DNA of 22,981 nucleotides from a virus, in the IMG/VR virus record IMGVR_UViG_3300025138_006795, positions 1-22,981 of that record. The stretch is one strand, 5' to 3'. The position numbers and the translations under genes were made by a program. Within the stretch, counting starts at the first letter, position 1; each line of letters starts with the position of its first letter. Shown one piece after another: positions 2,961 through 12,331 of the stretch. A model generated the notes under the pieces. That model did not search any database. It was not told the origin of the DNA and saw only the letters and a list, made by a program, of their open reading frames with translations.

Positions 2961-3059
2961 TATATACTACAGAGACAACTTGTAGAGGTTGTCCAATGAC
3001 GGCGGGATGCAGAATAATCTGGTCCCAGAACATTCTTGCTTGGAAGAGGAGAACCCAAA
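2961..3059 (+). promoter_or_regulatory. hsp20 leader with ROSE-like RNA thermometer
   Basis: The leader contains three possible stems: GACAAC/GTTGTC (2974-2979 with 2988-2993), GGGA/TCCC (3004-3007 with 3023-3026), and a last hairpin that hides the ribosome binding site. In this last one TTC (3033-3035) pairs with GAA (3051-3053), and TTGCT (3036-3040) pairs with AGGA (3047-3050) with one bulged G, around a six-base loop. A UYGCU motif pairing with the AGGA of the Shine-Dalgarno with a bulged G is the hallmark of ROSE thermometers, which control small heat-shock genes in alpha- and gammaproteobacteria. Position, gene and motif all agree. Melting behaviour is untested. Confidence 0.7.
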
Positions 3060-3542
3060 ATGACAGGCATTCAAACACTATTTCCACGATCATCTTTTGT
3101 GGGATTCGATCATTTGTTTAACGAAATGGAACACACAGTTCGTCATGCATCTGACCACTATCCACCTCACAATATTATTAAGGCGAGTGAGCATGAATAT
3201 CTTATTGAACTTGCAGTTGCAGGCTTTTCAAAAGATGAATTATCAATAGAAGTTAAAGATAGAACTTTGATGATAACTGGAGAACACGTTAGCAAAGGAA
3301 GAGACTTTATTCATCGAGGTATTAGTACCAAGAAGTTTAAACGTACTTTTCGATTGTCTGAACACGTTCAAGTAAACGGAGCAGATATTCAGGATGGCAT
3401 ACTTGCAGTAGAATTGAAGTATGAAATACCAGAAGAAATGCGTCCTCGTAAAATTTCAATTGGAAAAAACGAGGAAAACTCAAATGCAACATATACTAAC
3501 AAGTCACAACTTCTTAACGAGAGGTCTAACAGGACTGTTTGA
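3060..3542 (+). CDS. hsp20: Small heat-shock protein Hsp20 (IbpA-type)
   Basis: This is an ATP-independent holdase chaperone with an alpha-crystallin domain. It has 160 residues from ATG 3060, preceded by GGAG with eight bases of spacing; a TTG at 3036 lies inside the leader hairpin and is unlikely to be used. The N-terminus (FDHLFNEME) is IbpA-like. The crystallin core runs from about residue 35 to 130 with YLIELAVAGFSKDEL, KDRTLMITGEH, RGISTKKFKRTFRL and DGILAVELKYEIPEE. The C-terminal RPRKISIG supplies the usual I-x-I tail motif. Hsp20 is common in T4-like cyanophages, where it is thought to help head or tail assembly or protect host proteins. It has its own promoter and a ROSE-like leader, and its 3' end overlaps the next small ORF. 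Confidence 0.95.
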   Translation: MTGIQTLFPRSSFVGFDHLFNEMEHTVRHASDHYPPHNIIKASEHEYLIELAVAGFSKDELSIEVKDRTLMITGEHVSKGRDFIHRGISTKKFKRTFRLSEHVQVNGADIQDGILAVELKYEIPEEMRPRKISIGKNEENSNATYTNKSQLLNERSNRTV

Positions 3543-3696
3543 TCTTTTATCATCTTTAGTAAAATCTATTCAATTTTCAAGACAGTGTTCTGCAAATGCA
3601 GATTTGGTTAAATATTTTAGAATAGAATATCCATATATGTCCGATCATGAAATACTGGTCGAATTGAATAGAAGAACTTTGGAGGAATTTAAATGA
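3484..3696 (+). CDS. Small hypothetical protein overlapping hsp20
   Basis: A 70-residue frame starts at ATG 3484 inside the end of hsp20, with GAGGA a few bases upstream. It runs 150 bases past the hsp20 stop and ends in an ATGA overlap with the next ORF. The frame continues upstream to 3421, but that part is only a shadow of hsp20. The product has an amphipathic or hydrophobic start (GLTGLFDLLSSLVKSIQF) and an acidic, structured-looking end (VKYFRIEYPYMSDHEILVEL). No family is recognised. The region beyond hsp20 has no other reading frame, which supports this one as real. Confidence 0.55.
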   Translation: MQHILTSHNFLTRGLTGLFDLLSSLVKSIQFSRQCSANADLVKYFRIEYPYMSDHEILVELNRRTLEEFK

Positions 3697-3989: not shown

Positions 3990-4295
3990 ATGAGACAACA
4001 TATTTTTGACACTTGGAACAGTGTAATGGATTCAAATATAAGTCCACTAAAAAACATTCCTAACTTACAGGTACGCCATTTAATTATGCAAATTCTTGCA
4101 TGGATGTGGGTATCTGTATGCTCTATGTATTTAGGAAGCATAATGTTCTGGGGAATTAACGCAATCGCACACACCCTTTTACTTGCGGCGATTGTAATTA
4201 CTGTTGGTACGTTTGAAACCGCAAAGCGAAAGCCTAAAGTTTTTGACAGAATTGATGGATACAACGGACGCCAAAACAATGGCGAACATAATTAA
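3990..4295 (+). CDS. Small membrane protein, two predicted helices
   Basis: The protein has 101 residues from ATG 3990, preceded by GGAG at 3979-3982. An ATG at 3978 overlaps that binding site and is less likely. Two hydrophobic segments, at about residues 30-48 (LIMQILAWMWVSVCSMYLG) and 50-70 (IMFWGINAIAHTLLLAAIVI), are joined by a very short turn and followed by a basic, Gly/Asn-rich tail (TAKRKPKVFDR). This suggests an inner-membrane hairpin with both ends in the cytoplasm. Similar two-helix proteins with an ETAKR-like end occur, as I recall, in marine bacteria and their phages. The function is unknown. It is directly followed by the pseudoazurin-like gene, so a link to envelope or respiratory processes is possible. 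Confidence 0.7.
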   Translation: MRQHIFDTWNSVMDSNISPLKNIPNLQVRHLIMQILAWMWVSVCSMYLGSIMFWGINAIAHTLLLAAIVITVGTFETAKRKPKVFDRIDGYNGRQNNGEHN

Positions 4296-4306
4296 TGGAG
4301 AAATAT

Positions 4307-4735
4307 ATGGATAAAATTCTAATAGTACTTGCAATGATGTTGGCATTTACTACTTCTGCTTGGGCAGAAGATGTAGCAATCGATATGTTAAACAAGAGAG
4401 CCGATGGAGAAAAAATGGCTTACAGTGTAGATATTGCCAGAATTGATGTTGGTGATACTGTCACTTGGCTACCAGCAAAAAAAGGACATAACGTAGAATT
4501 TCGTGCAGGTCCTGATGGAGTAAAACTACCGAGAAAATCAAAAATGAATAAAGAATTTTCTATGACTTTTGATACTCCAGGCATTTATTATTACTGGTGT
4601 ACTCCACATAAAGCTATGGGCATGATTGGGCTTGTAGTTGTGGGAGATGATACCTCAAATAAAGATGCTATTGCTAAAACCAAAACATCGGGCAAATCTA
4701 AAAAGAAACTAAAAAAACTTCTGACTCAACTTTAA
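4307..4735 (+). CDS. Pseudoazurin-like blue copper protein, secreted
   Basis: This is a type I copper electron carrier. From ATG 4307 (GGAG six bases before) it has 142 residues and starts with a clean signal peptide ending S-A-W-A/ED near residue 20, so the mature protein should be periplasmic. A start at ATG 4295 would add four residues. All four copper ligands of pseudoazurin are visible: His61 in KKGHNVEF, then Cys98, His101 and Met106 in YYWCTPHKAMGMIGLVVVGD. The opening VAIDMLNKRADGEKMAYS and the C-terminal lysine-rich helix also match pseudoazurin. In proteobacteria it passes electrons from the bc1 complex to copper nitrite reductase and other periplasmic oxidoreductases. It probably keeps electron flow going during infection, as plastocyanin does in cyanophages. 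Confidence 0.88.
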   Translation: MDKILIVLAMMLAFTTSAWAEDVAIDMLNKRADGEKMAYSVDIARIDVGDTVTWLPAKKGHNVEFRAGPDGVKLPRKSKMNKEFSMTFDTPGIYYYWCTPHKAMGMIGLVVVGDDTSNKDAIAKTKTSGKSKKKLKKLLTQL

Positions 4736-8854: not shown

Positions 8855-9679
8855 ATGACTTTTATTGCAGCAATGGACCACAGCGGTGGATCAACAGGTG
8901 GAGTTTTAGAACGCTACGGACAAGAATATACTGAAGATGATAAAATGGAAAAAGTCCATGCAATGCGTATGCGTATGGTAAATAGTCCTAAATTTACTTC
9001 AGAAAATATAAAAGGAGCAATTCTGTACAAAGATACTTTGGATAGAGGAATGGCTTCAATTCTACACGAAAAGAAAATTCCTATCTATTTGAAAGTTGAT
9101 AGTGGTTGTAATCCAGACGGAACTCTTAAAGATTTTGATATAGCTGAGATGATTCAGTTCGCAACTAAACATGGCTGTACTGGCACAAAAATGCGAAGTA
9201 TTGTCCATAGTGTTGATATGATAGCACCTGTACTAAATCAACAATTTAAACTTGCTAAAGAAATTGCTGAAGGATTTCTTATGCCTATTATTGAACCAGA
9301 AGTTCCTATCGATTCTCCAGATAAAGCAGAAATTGAATGGAAAATGCATGTTCAACTTAGAAATAAGTTAGATACATTTCACTCAGATAATAATACTTTG
9401 GGTTTGGTTAGACTTTTTACTATGTTAAAGCTAACTCCACCAGAACAAGATGATTTGTATTATGAGTTGACAAAGCACTACAATGTTGATAGTATAGTTT
9501 CTTTAAGCGGCGGATACTCTACGGATGAAGCATGTGAACGTCTTTCAAAACAGAGGAATATATCAGCAAGCTTCAGCCGCGCTTTAAGTGAAGGTCTATT
9601 CTTCACTCAGTCCGAAGAAGAATTTAATAGTCGCATAAATCAGAATATAGACCAAATATGTAAAGCCAGTAGAGGATAA
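8855..9679 (+). CDS. fda: Fructose-bisphosphate aldolase, class I
   Basis: This enzyme reversibly joins dihydroxyacetone phosphate and glyceraldehyde 3-phosphate into fructose 1,6-bisphosphate, acting in glycolysis, gluconeogenesis or the Calvin cycle. It has 274 residues, against about 295 for bacterial class I enzymes. Family landmarks in order are FIAAMDHSGGSTGGVL at the start, VHAMRMRMVNSP near 34, GAILYKDTLDR near 55, IYLKVDSG near 76, GCTGTKMRS near 105, PIIEPEVPI near 145, MLKLTPP near 190 with Lys192 as the Schiff-base lysine, SLSGGYSTDEA near 216, and ASFSRAL near 237. All key residues seem intact. Its ATG follows an AAGGAGA site, ten bases after the primase-like gene. The best resemblance is to bacterial short class I aldolases such as those of Staphylococcus. 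It opens the metabolic cassette. Confidence 0.93.
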   Translation: MTFIAAMDHSGGSTGGVLERYGQEYTEDDKMEKVHAMRMRMVNSPKFTSENIKGAILYKDTLDRGMASILHEKKIPIYLKVDSGCNPDGTLKDFDIAEMIQFATKHGCTGTKMRSIVHSVDMIAPVLNQQFKLAKEIAEGFLMPIIEPEVPIDSPDKAEIEWKMHVQLRNKLDTFHSDNNTLGLVRLFTMLKLTPPEQDDLYYELTKHYNVDSIVSLSGGYSTDEACERLSKQRNISASFSRALSEGLFFTQSEEEFNSRINQNIDQICKASRG

Positions 9680-9682
9680 AAT

Positions 9683-10027
9683 ATGACTATTGCTGGAAAA
9701 GTTTGGGGTCAAACTGAATTGATTGAAGCAAATTGTGCATTAGAATTTCATAGAATTTTAATGAATAAGGGAGGAGTTTGTAGCAAACATCTACATGAAT
9801 ACAAATGGAATGGCTTTTATGTTGAAAGTGGTGTGATGAAAGTCTCTGTCTGGCAGAAAGATTATGACTTAATTGATGAAACTATTTTATATGAAGGCGA
9901 CTATACAAAAGTAAAACCTGGTCTATATCATCAGTTTGAATGTCTAGAGTCAGGAGTTGCGTTTGAATTATATTGGGCAGAGTTTAATCATAACGATATT
10001 ATAAGAGAAACGGTAGGACATAAATGA
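9683..10027 (+). CDS. Cupin-domain protein
   Basis: This 114-residue single-domain cupin has motif 1 as GGVCSKHLHEYKWNGFYVESG near residues 30-50 (His35, His37 and Glu38 as metal ligands) and motif 2 as GDYTKVKPGLYHQFECLESG near 74-93 (His83). The pattern resembles the small WbuC-like or mannose-6-phosphate-isomerase-like cupins used in sugar metabolism, but these sequences do not fix a substrate. It sits between the aldolase and SAM synthetase genes, with short spacing and a 4-base ATGA overlap to the latter. A sugar-phosphate isomerase or epimerase would fit the nearby phosphomannomutase-like gene, and a binding-only role is equally possible. Confidence 0.8.
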   Translation: MTIAGKVWGQTELIEANCALEFHRILMNKGGVCSKHLHEYKWNGFYVESGVMKVSVWQKDYDLIDETILYEGDYTKVKPGLYHQFECLESGVAFELYWAEFNHNDIIRETVGHK

Positions 10028-11112
10028 TTTTTACGAGTGAAAGTGTTAGCGCAGGTCATCCCGATAAAGTTGCAGATCAAATCTCAGATGCATTGGTAGA
10101 TGCCGGACTACATGCTGGTAATGAAACGACTCGTGTTGCGATAGAAACTTTAGTTACTACAAATTCCGTGACTATTGCTGGTGAAGTAAAAAATTATAAC
10201 GTCGGCTTTCTTAAAAGAGCGGAGATTGTTCGTAATGTTATAAAAGAAATAGGTTATGAGCAAGAAGGTTTTCATCATAAAAGCGTAATTATAACTGATA
10301 AGATTCATGAGCAAAGTGATGATATTGCACTAGGAACAGATGGTTTTGGTGCAGGCGATCAAGGCATTATGTTTGGATATGCGTGTAATCACACAAAAAG
10401 TATGATGCCAGCGCCTATTCATTTTTCACATGAAATCATGAAAGAGTTAAATAAACAAAAGCGCCAATCTCAAATTTTAGGTCCAGATGCAAAAGCACAA
10501 GTAAGTGTTGAATATAATGGTCCTAGGCGCGACGGCAATATTAAACGCATTGATCAAGTTGTTATAAGTACTCAGCATGATGAAGGCAAATGCGATATTG
10601 CAAGAAAATTATCTAAGCAATCAGCCCATAGTGTATTAGGAGATTTGATTGATGAAAATACTAAATGGCATCTTAATCCCACTGGTAATTTTGTTATCGG
10701 TGGTCCAGATGGTGATGCTGGCGTCACTGGACGTAAGATCATTGTTGATACCTATGGGGGTTTTGCTCCTCATGGTGGTGGCGCATTTAGTGGAAAAGAT
10801 CCTACAAAAGTAGATAGAAGTGGTGCATACATTGCCCGATGGCTTGCTAAGAATATTGTAGCAGATGAAATGGCCGATTGGTGTAATATTCAACTATCGT
10901 ATGCAATTGGAGTAAAAGAGCCTACTAGTATATACATTGATAGTAACGGTCATAATAGATCAATAGAAAAATTTATTAGAAATGAAATTGATTTGACTCC
11001 AAAAGGAATTATTGATAGATTTGATTTATTCAACTTCTACAAGTATAGTGAAAATTGTGTACATGGTCATTTTGGCAATAAAGATGTGCCATGGGAAAAG
11101 ATTGGATGGTAG
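10024..11112 (+). CDS. metK: S-adenosylmethionine synthetase
   Basis: This enzyme makes SAM from methionine and ATP. It has 362 residues, a little shorter than the bacterial 384. It begins TSESVSAGHPDKVADQISDA with the GHPDK active-site segment at residues 11-15. GFGAGDQGIMFGYA near 107 is the first family signature, and GGGAFSGKDPTKVDRSGAY near 251 is the second, with the phosphate-binding loop. GGPDGDAGVTGRKIIVDTYGG lies between them. Catalytic residues look complete, so it should be active. It starts in an ATGA overlap with the cupin gene. SAM from this enzyme could feed the DNA methyltransferase at 13427-14575. Phage MetK is unusual; some phages instead encode SAM-degrading enzymes. Confidence 0.96.
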   Translation: MIFTSESVSAGHPDKVADQISDALVDAGLHAGNETTRVAIETLVTTNSVTIAGEVKNYNVGFLKRAEIVRNVIKEIGYEQEGFHHKSVIITDKIHEQSDDIALGTDGFGAGDQGIMFGYACNHTKSMMPAPIHFSHEIMKELNKQKRQSQILGPDAKAQVSVEYNGPRRDGNIKRIDQVVISTQHDEGKCDIARKLSKQSAHSVLGDLIDENTKWHLNPTGNFVIGGPDGDAGVTGRKIIVDTYGGFAPHGGGAFSGKDPTKVDRSGAYIARWLAKNIVADEMADWCNIQLSYAIGVKEPTSIYIDSNGHNRSIEKFIRNEIDLTPKGIIDRFDLFNFYKYSENCVHGHFGNKDVPWEKIGW

Positions 11113-11113
11113 A

Positions 11114-12331
11114 ATGACAAATATTAACATTACAACAGAACCAACTGGTCGTAGTCCAGAGAACAAATACTTTTTTGGAGAAGCAACTTCAGAGTTATGT
11201 AAAGAAAGACCGAAATATTGCAAGATTGGTAATATGGATGATTATCTTTTGTTTGCAGATAAAATGCTTCCTAGAATGATAACAGAAAAAGTTTATAGAA
11301 AACCCTTACAATTTAAATCCGCAAATATTAAGTTCGTTGTACATACTAACGATGAACGCCATGAACAGTTTGTTAGAAATATGTTTGACGTACTACCTAA
11401 TGGATTTGGACATGAAGTTCCAGATTGGACAATTTGGCACAACACAGAATTAGAAGTGCCACATCCTAAAATTTATGTGAATCTTGACACTCAAACAATG
11501 TTCATTGCTGGAACTACATTTCTCGGTGAGATTAAAAAAGGTGTATTCGGTATTCTTGGATTTGAACTGCCAAGGCATGATATTTTACCAATGCATTGTA
11601 GTGCTTTCACATATGATGCAACTACTAATTTAATGTTTGGTTTGAGTGGCACAGGTAAAACTACGTTGAGTAGCGATCCAAATTATGCGTTGATTAGTGA
11701 CGATGAAGTTTATTGGGATATGCATGGCATAAACATGATTGAAACTGGATGTTATGCTAAGAGTGAAGGACTTACACCTGAAACACACAAAACAATCTTT
11801 GATGCAGTTGAAAAAGCAAGATCGGAAGATTGCTTAGTTGTAGAAAATCCAGGTGTGCCGAACGCAAGATTGAGTTATCCAATTACATGTGTTGAAAACG
11901 CATATCATAGTCCTCAGAAATTTGATCATCCAGATAATATATTTTTCTTAACTATGGACGCAAAGGGTGTATTTCCACCATACAGTAAAATTAGCGGCGA
12001 CACAGTACGAAGATTCTTTGAAACAGGCTATACAAGTCAGATGCCTGGTACCGAAGCTGGTGATAATCAGATCAAACCATTATTTAGCCCATGTTATGGA
12101 TCACCATTTATGCCAAGACCTGTGAAAGAATACAGCGATTTGCTGATGAAAAAAATTCATGCAAATAATTGTAATGTATATTTGATTAATACTGGAATGG
12201 ATAAAGACGGTAATAGGTTTTCTCTTGACTTTACTCGCCAATGCGTTAAACTGTGTATAGAAAGTAATTTGCAAGACGAGAGTAAAGAAGTATTAAAAAC
12301 TTTAGAAGATTTGATAGGCAATAGAATATGA
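11114..12331 (+). CDS. pckA: Phosphoenolpyruvate carboxykinase (ATP), shortened
   Basis: This enzyme converts oxaloacetate and ATP to PEP, CO2 and ADP, the entry step of gluconeogenesis. From ATG 11114 it has 405 residues against about 530 in bacteria. The frame is open upstream to 11012 inside metK, but the homology starts at TGRSPENKYFF. Active-site blocks are all present: Arg13 in TGRSP, Lys in GEIKKGVFG near 139, His in MHCSA near 161, the P-loop GLSGTGKTTLS near 176, the metal-binding ISDDE near 195, Arg in NARLSYPI near 252, and the FLTMDAKGVFPPYSK and GYTSQMPGTEAG regions. The losses fall at the N-terminus and in peripheral loops, so this looks like a compact working enzyme. It overlaps the following HAD gene by four bases. 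Confidence 0.93.
   Translation: MTNINITTEPTGRSPENKYFFGEATSELCKERPKYCKIGNMDDYLLFADKMLPRMITEKVYRKPLQFKSANIKFVVHTNDERHEQFVRNMFDVLPNGFGHEVPDWTIWHNTELEVPHPKIYVNLDTQTMFIAGTTFLGEIKKGVFGILGFELPRHDILPMHCSAFTYDATTNLMFGLSGTGKTTLSSDPNYALISDDEVYWDMHGINMIETGCYAKSEGLTPETHKTIFDAVEKARSEDCLVVENPGVPNARLSYPITCVENAYHSPQKFDHPDNIFFLTMDAKGVFPPYSKISGDTVRRFFETGYTSQMPGTEAGDNQIKPLFSPCYGSPFMPRPVKEYSDLLMKKIHANNCNVYLINTGMDKDGNRFSLDFTRQCVKLCIESNLQDESKEVLKTLEDLIGNRI

Follow-up and report, generated by a model that had tools for sequence, protein, structure and literature searches.

A ROSE-type element in phage hsp20 leaders, probably a two-hairpin RNA thermometer

RNA elements of the ROSE class carry a U(U/C)GCU sequence that is imperfectly paired with the Shine-Dalgarno (SD) sequence and a predicted bulged G in the SD hairpin, and they usually stand before a small heat-shock gene (PMC11342760, PMC3669281). 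In T4-like cyanophages, hsp20 is a core gene whose role in infection is unsettled (PMC3037559). The DNA analysed here is an IMG/VR virus record of 22,981 bases, the whole of which is called the window; it comes from a T4-like marine phage, and its hsp20 leader raises the question of whether a phage governs its own chaperone with an RNA thermometer of this class. A first-pass annotation had read a ROSE-like thermometer behind a perfect promoter at this locus, and had proposed a covariance search with the Rfam ROSE models and an alignment with the leaders of related phages as checks. Its coordinates, and the pairing that it described between TTGCT and AGGA with a bulged G and a flanking TTC/GAA, proved exact when the sequence was re-read, and the small heat-shock gene that it placed downstream is borne out by a Pfam match (PF00011) to the reading frame that follows. 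Hairpin I falls inside the interval that had been marked but was absent from its description, and is part of the element. The features of the locus are as follows.

2926-2954, + strand: sigma-70-type promoter TTGACA-17-TATAAT, agreeing with 12/12 consensus positions; L009 and L012, near relatives, have a similar one, most of the clade none
2960-2968, + strand: CATATATAC, at the site of the relatives' T4-late-promoter-like box (TATAWATA / YTAAATA); the window copy has one mismatch
2974-2993, + strand: accessory 5' hairpin GACAAC...GTTGTC, present only in the window's sub-clade
3004-3026, + strand: hairpin I, GGGATGCAGA-ATAA-TCTGGTCCC, with bulged G3009; seen by covariation and aligned to ROSE_3
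3033-3053, + strand: hairpin II, TTCTTGCT-TGGAAG-AGGAGAA, with the ROSE core UUGCU/AGGA and bulged G3038; seen by covariation and clade-wide presence
3037-3042, + strand: UGCUUG, the strand common to hairpin II and a possible competing helix; G3042, in the hairpin II loop, is invariant in the clade
3047-3051, + strand: Shine-Dalgarno AGGAG, from sequence, 8 nt before the ATG at 3060
3060-3542, + strand: hsp20, an alpha-crystallin small heat-shock protein (PF00011, E=5e-18, 65.5 bits against a cut-off of 20.8)
3064-3069, + strand: CAGGCA in codons 2-4, complementary to 3037-3042; ACA GGC is invariant, and the duplex was compared with shuffles

The sequence features of the ROSE class were found in this leader. 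In hairpin II, the strand at 3033-3040 (TTC at 3033-3035 and TTGCT at 3036-3040) closes over the loop TGGAAG (3041-3046) onto AGGAGAA at 3047-3053 (AGGA at 3047-3050 and GAA at 3051-3053), so that the hsp20 SD is buried; TTGCT is the U(U/C)GCU sequence imperfectly paired to the SD, and G3038 is the predicted bulged G opposite it, which is kept in all aligned rows. ROSE elements have two to four hairpins with the SD in the 3'-proximal one, and here hairpins I and II are joined by the clade-specific 5' hairpin, at whose site relatives carry GGCAAT..ATTGTC and TTAGCAT..ATGCTAA (by eye). The bulged-G arrangement of hairpin I, with AUGC opposite GGU, is the same as that of hairpin II and of the ROSE_3 consensus, and a small heat-shock gene follows.

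The Rfam search gave a full-length alignment at a score below the curated threshold. No Rfam family reached its gathering score in the window. At relaxed thresholds, ROSE_3 (RF02523) was the best of 4227 families for the leader, with 20.2 bits and E=0.048, and the alignment runs the full length of the model and keeps the AUG in register; since its gathering score is 43, membership by the curated rule was rejected. ROSE_2 (RF01832) gave no match to the window leader up to E=10. For comparison, the Pseudomonas-type ibpA leader scored 69.2 bits against ROSE_3, and the best phage tested, Methylophilales phage Melnitz-3, scored 34.1 bits. The ibpA leader of Salmonella, a genuine ROSE_2 that scores 94.9 bits against its own model, reached 23.9 bits against ROSE_3, and the window leader is therefore within the range of another genuine ROSE family.

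In 80 hsp20 loci from IMG/VR (protein identity 78-100%), TTGCTTG...AGGAG stands before every ATG, and in hairpin I the sequence changes while the pairs are kept. The C48C1 lineage, whose Hsp20 is 57% identical, carries AACTTGCT...AGGAGTT or AGGAGTC together with a hairpin I of different sequence. Because the MAFFT alignment (A1) placed hairpin I and the SD out of register in several rows, the covariation counts were taken from an alignment fitted to the model (A4). These counts lean towards the structure; the unaligned raw leaders display the same co-changes. Among 69 distinct rows of A4, both-sided changes occurred in 10 of the 16 pairs and 99.3% of cells were paired, compared with 41-57% in slid-partner controls, and the covariation score was 0.534, compared with 0.133 for shuffled and at most 0.050 for slid alignments. 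Seven of the nine pairs of hairpin I showed both-sided changes (99.3% of cells paired). Hairpin II had 99.1% of cells paired, with outer pairs that swap A-U for U-A; its SD-pairing core is nearly invariant, and what supports it are the outer pairs, a replacement of U-G by C-G and the retained bulged G. The cyanophage leaders independently yielded three covarying pairs, with a score of 0.146 against 0.060 when shuffled. The alignment with related phages thus kept the pairs that the first-pass annotation had drawn.

Covariance models built from phage leaders pointed to the same place. A model made from the leaders of six relatives with the window left out (R1) returned 78 matches at E<=1 in a search over 539 kb, all of them hsp20 leaders, and scored the window leader at 47.6 bits (E=5e-8). 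A later model, built partly from the window itself, had 3004-3060 as its sole strong match in the whole 23-kb window (61.9 bits; next 13.3). A model built from two close phage lineages, the window and C48C1 clades (R2), also matched the Pseudomonas-type ibpA ROSE (E=4e-4), alphaproteobacterial hsp20 leaders and leaders of named phages; when whole records were scanned, its best match was the hsp20 leader in 10/12 named phage records and 9/9 of the IMG/VR records tried. R2 found no match on the whole S-TIM61 record, and on VpB-34 gave weak matches elsewhere only. Taken together, the motif, the architecture, the covariation and the Rfam alignment agree with the arrangement first proposed and, as far as sequence comparison goes, strongly support a ROSE-type element in this phage hsp20 leader.

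The hairpin II core was present in 38/38 distinct leaders of the window clade and 31/31 of the C48C1 clade, in 51/53 distinct cyanophage and 60/60 Melnitz-like leaders, and in at least 49 of 57 pelagiphage-like leaders; among the remainder, two owe their miss to a wrongly called start and do have the core, and four carry an ACGCT variant. All 30 bacterial hsp20 leaders, mostly alphaproteobacterial, also have it. The loci of the two close lineages contain 1205 ORF starts other than those of hsp20, 196 of them with an AGGA SD; a UYGCU-N3-14-AGGA core stood before just four, and three of these are a single homologous site. Set against 38/38 distinct window-clade hsp20 leaders, such a frequency means that the core is not there by chance. 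Upstream of hairpin II, a UGC/GG hairpin, expected in 0.1-0.5% of shuffled sequence, was found in every core-bearing leader of the window clade (38/38), the C48C1 clade (31/31) and the cyanophages (51/51), and in 56/60 Melnitz-like but only 12/49 pelagiphage-like ones. The loci are the best 80 matches per query, and close relatives of each query are over-represented in these counts. In four leaders (L335, L339, L342 and L364) a variant core, ATAACGCTTAACGGAGGTTAT, lies about 20 nt before the ATG with the bulged G kept, C-G in place of U-G and a perfect outer stem, and is possibly a stiffer ROSE variant. At L338:291-350 and L347:282-341, a ROSE-type element precedes a short ORF (phasin-like by eye) that is followed by hsp20; here a leader of this type heads a differently composed operon.

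Among named phages, the core stands before hsp20 in syn9, S-SM1, ACG-2014b, P-TIM40, Melnitz-3, HTVC115P and HTVC103P, as well as in Sinorhizobium phage Phosso and AG-345-P14; the hsp20 leaders of cyanophage S-TIM61 and Vibrio phage VpB-34 have no ROSE core. Nearly all hsp20 leaders examined from phages of Synechococcus, Prochlorococcus, Pelagibacter, Methylophilales and Sinorhizobium carried it, and the element was seen in several hundred other phage sequences. The idea that it marks the host as one of a ROSE-using lineage was abandoned, because it occurs in phages of unrelated hosts; its presence before hsp20 in phages of cyanobacterial to proteobacterial hosts indicates that it travels with the phage gene and bears no host-lineage signal. 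In a tree of Hsp20 proteins, the window clade joins the C48C1 clade (100/99), both near bacterial IbpA (94/93), and the cyanophage and Melnitz-like proteins fall elsewhere; the deep branches are weakly supported and do not distinguish single from repeated acquisition. One contig binned as a Rhodobacteraceae MAG (L083) carries a phage hsp20 with the same leader (protein 75% identical), a weak hint at an alphaproteobacterial host for the window clade.

The perfect promoter of the first-pass annotation fared differently in its two aspects: TTGACA-17-TATAAT does match the consensus throughout, but it is confined to the nearest relatives of the window, and as a conserved driver of the gene it was rejected. 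On sequence evidence, the conserved promoter-like feature is the TATAWATA box at the 5' end of the leader. This box (TATAWATA/YTAAATA) abuts the 5' side of the hairpins in 34/46 upstream regions of the window clade, 36/36 of the C48C1 clade, 51/62 of cyanophages and 52/68 of Melnitz-like phages, where shuffles lead one to expect 3-5, and in 0/30 bacterial leaders. The T4 late promoter is TATAAAT (PMC3037559). Given the position of the box, transcripts would start at the structured part or a little ahead of it.

The reading that we favour, with a probability of about 0.73, is that the 5' leader of phage hsp20 is a two-hairpin ROSE-type RNA thermometer. At low temperature, hairpin II would mask the ribosome-binding site by pairing the anti-SD UUGCU with AGGA around the bulged G; being a weak helix, it would melt gradually as temperature rises and allow Hsp20 to be translated. 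Hairpin I, with the same bulged-G motif, would sit directly 5' of it near the start of the transcript, and the Hsp20 made in this way would protect phage or host proteins during infection. The masking of translation, melting within the physiological range and a benefit to the phage are what we infer from this structure. When the leader alone was folded with ViennaRNA, the SD was unpaired with a mean probability of 0.05 at 10 °C and 0.31 at 50 °C across 38 clade leaders, a gradual melting. When codons 2-4 were included, mean SD exposure in the window clade went from 0.67 at 15 °C to 0.76 at 45 °C, with a competing helix favoured, which weakens the first-pass proposal that chaperone would be made only at raised temperature; the temperature change predicted by folding for cyanophage leaders was also small.

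The competing helix belongs to a different account of the leader, which we regard as quite unlikely: a two-state RNA switch in which UGCUUG, the anti-SD strand, gives up hairpin II for a helix with CAGGC(A) of codons 2-4, so that either the SD is exposed or the start codon is locked, the choice being made by folding kinetics or temperature. Codons 2-3 are invariantly ACA GGC in 55/55 distinct coding sequences, where the other conserved glycine codons, Gly107 excepted, vary (dominance 0.44-0.65), and the loop base G3042 is invariant only in the window clade. The competing hairpin is predicted to be the more stable at 37 °C (-7.7 versus -3.2 kcal/mol), but the computed energies omit the non-canonical stacking of ROSE hairpins; in modelling terms, either nearest-neighbour energies undervalue the ROSE hairpin with its non-canonical pairs, or the window clade has a two-state variant. 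The duplex outperformed shuffles (p<0.05) in 86% of the window clade, 36% of the C48C1 clade and 0-8% of the other groups, and a helix general to all groups was therefore rejected. Neither the other phage groups nor bacterial ROSE elements have the switch, perhaps bar a few Melnitz-like leaders; its strands are both invariant and so show no covariation, and the helix lies within the ribosome footprint, where it may inhibit translation instead of exposing the SD. Whether the ROSE hairpin of the window clade forms one half of such a switch, in which invariant codons 2-3 vie with the SD for the anti-SD strand beside an adjoining late-type promoter and without the autoregulatory arginine of IbpA, is a doubtful proposal, though a conceivable one.

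That arginine bears on a further alternative, in which the leader is a translational attenuator and not mainly a temperature sensor: Hsp20 would bind its own leader until aggregates draw it off, in the manner of E. coli IbpA, and the phage would make chaperone when proteins aggregate. Gammaproteobacterial IbpA represses its own mRNA through a ROSE leader and needs R93 to do so (PMC10474464); arginine occupies this position in 61/61 cyanophage, 57/57 matched pelagiphage-like and 58/66 Melnitz-like proteins, and also in the bacterial Hsp20 proteins compared. A chaperone tuned to protein load would suit late expression, and cyanophage Hsp20 has been proposed to take part in capsid maturation (PMC3037559). 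In the window and C48C1 clades, however, the residue is lysine in 78/78 proteins (41/41 in the window clade), the counterpart of K98 is Thr or, mostly, Gln, and R93K abolishes self-repression by E. coli IbpA (PMC10474464). By the E. coli rule, the window phage should thus lack this layer of control; IbpA-type autoregulation is disfavoured for it, and the attenuator is unlikely as the main account. By analogy with the E. coli data, cyanophages may have such a layer. It is highly improbable that the leader is conserved simply as a stabiliser of the mRNA 5' end or as a promoter-proximal feature, with incidental SD pairing: in most relatives hairpin I does come immediately behind the promoter box, and it covaries more strongly than hairpin II, but the outer pairs of hairpin II co-change, and almost every distinct phage leader, like the bacterial small heat-shock leaders, keeps UYGCU/AGGA with its bulged G.

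Several other features of the window genome were recorded. Near its 3' end, hsp20 has a second cluster of invariant codons (codons 125-131, at 3432-3452: E125, R128, P129, R130 and K131), which an out-of-frame ORF at 3421-3696 overlaps; the cluster suggests nucleotide-level constraint or an overlapping gene. A pseudoazurin-like copper protein with a signal-like N-terminus is encoded at 4295-4735 (TIGR02375, 105.7 bits, just under the cut-off of 109.85). What looks like a carbon-metabolism cassette, unusual for a phage, consists of a gene resembling class I fructose-bisphosphate aldolase (8855-9679), metK (10024-11112) and, next to them, a phage-encoded ATP-type phosphoenolpyruvate carboxykinase (11012-12328; PF01293, E=3e-87), and the protein encoded at 12328-13032 matches eukaryotic-type phosphomannomutase (PF03332, E=5e-24).

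Should the thermometer reading hold, temperature or proteotoxic load would directly control a chaperone in very abundant ocean viruses, and many phages may ration chaperone by temperature; phage RNA thermometers would go from three reported cases to hundreds, and when and why phages make Hsp20 would become testable by simple reporter fusions. The open-access literature (subscription journals were outside the scope) yielded no report of a ROSE element in a phage, and no paper on phage C48C1 was found.

This is a known mechanism class, ROSE, in a new setting, phages. The window element shares with ROSE_3 its two hairpins (hairpin I as GAUGC...GGUC with a bulged G, hairpin II as UYGCU/AGGA), the AUG spacing and the small heat-shock gene downstream, and differs in its phage genome, its sub-gathering score, a shorter spacer and a phage-type promoter context, where Pseudomonas ibpA is known for a sigma-32 promoter. 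It likewise resembles the short ROSE-like thermometers of Pseudomonas ibpA, with a two-hairpin leader of about 60 nt and an SD-paired U(U/C)GCU (PMC3669281); hairpin II is sufficient for regulation there (PMC3669281), as shown experimentally, whereas the case here is made by comparison alone and the carrier is a phage. With ROSE_2 of enterobacterial ibpA it has the SD-proximal ROSE core in common. The closest bacterial Hsp20 relatives found, those of Maricaulis and Robiginitomaculum, have leaders (L084-L113) with UYGCU...AGGA in 30/30 and a UGC/GG hairpin I in 11/30, but, unlike the window, mostly GC-rich upstream stems and no phage-type box. The RNA thermometers reported from phages, in lambda cIII, SPbeta blyA (fourU) and a Caudoviricetes (gut phage) sigma-70 gene (fourU) (PMC11182007, PMC10586365), also sit in phage mRNA leaders; unlike the element described here, those three are non-ROSE, control non-chaperone genes and belong to single phages.
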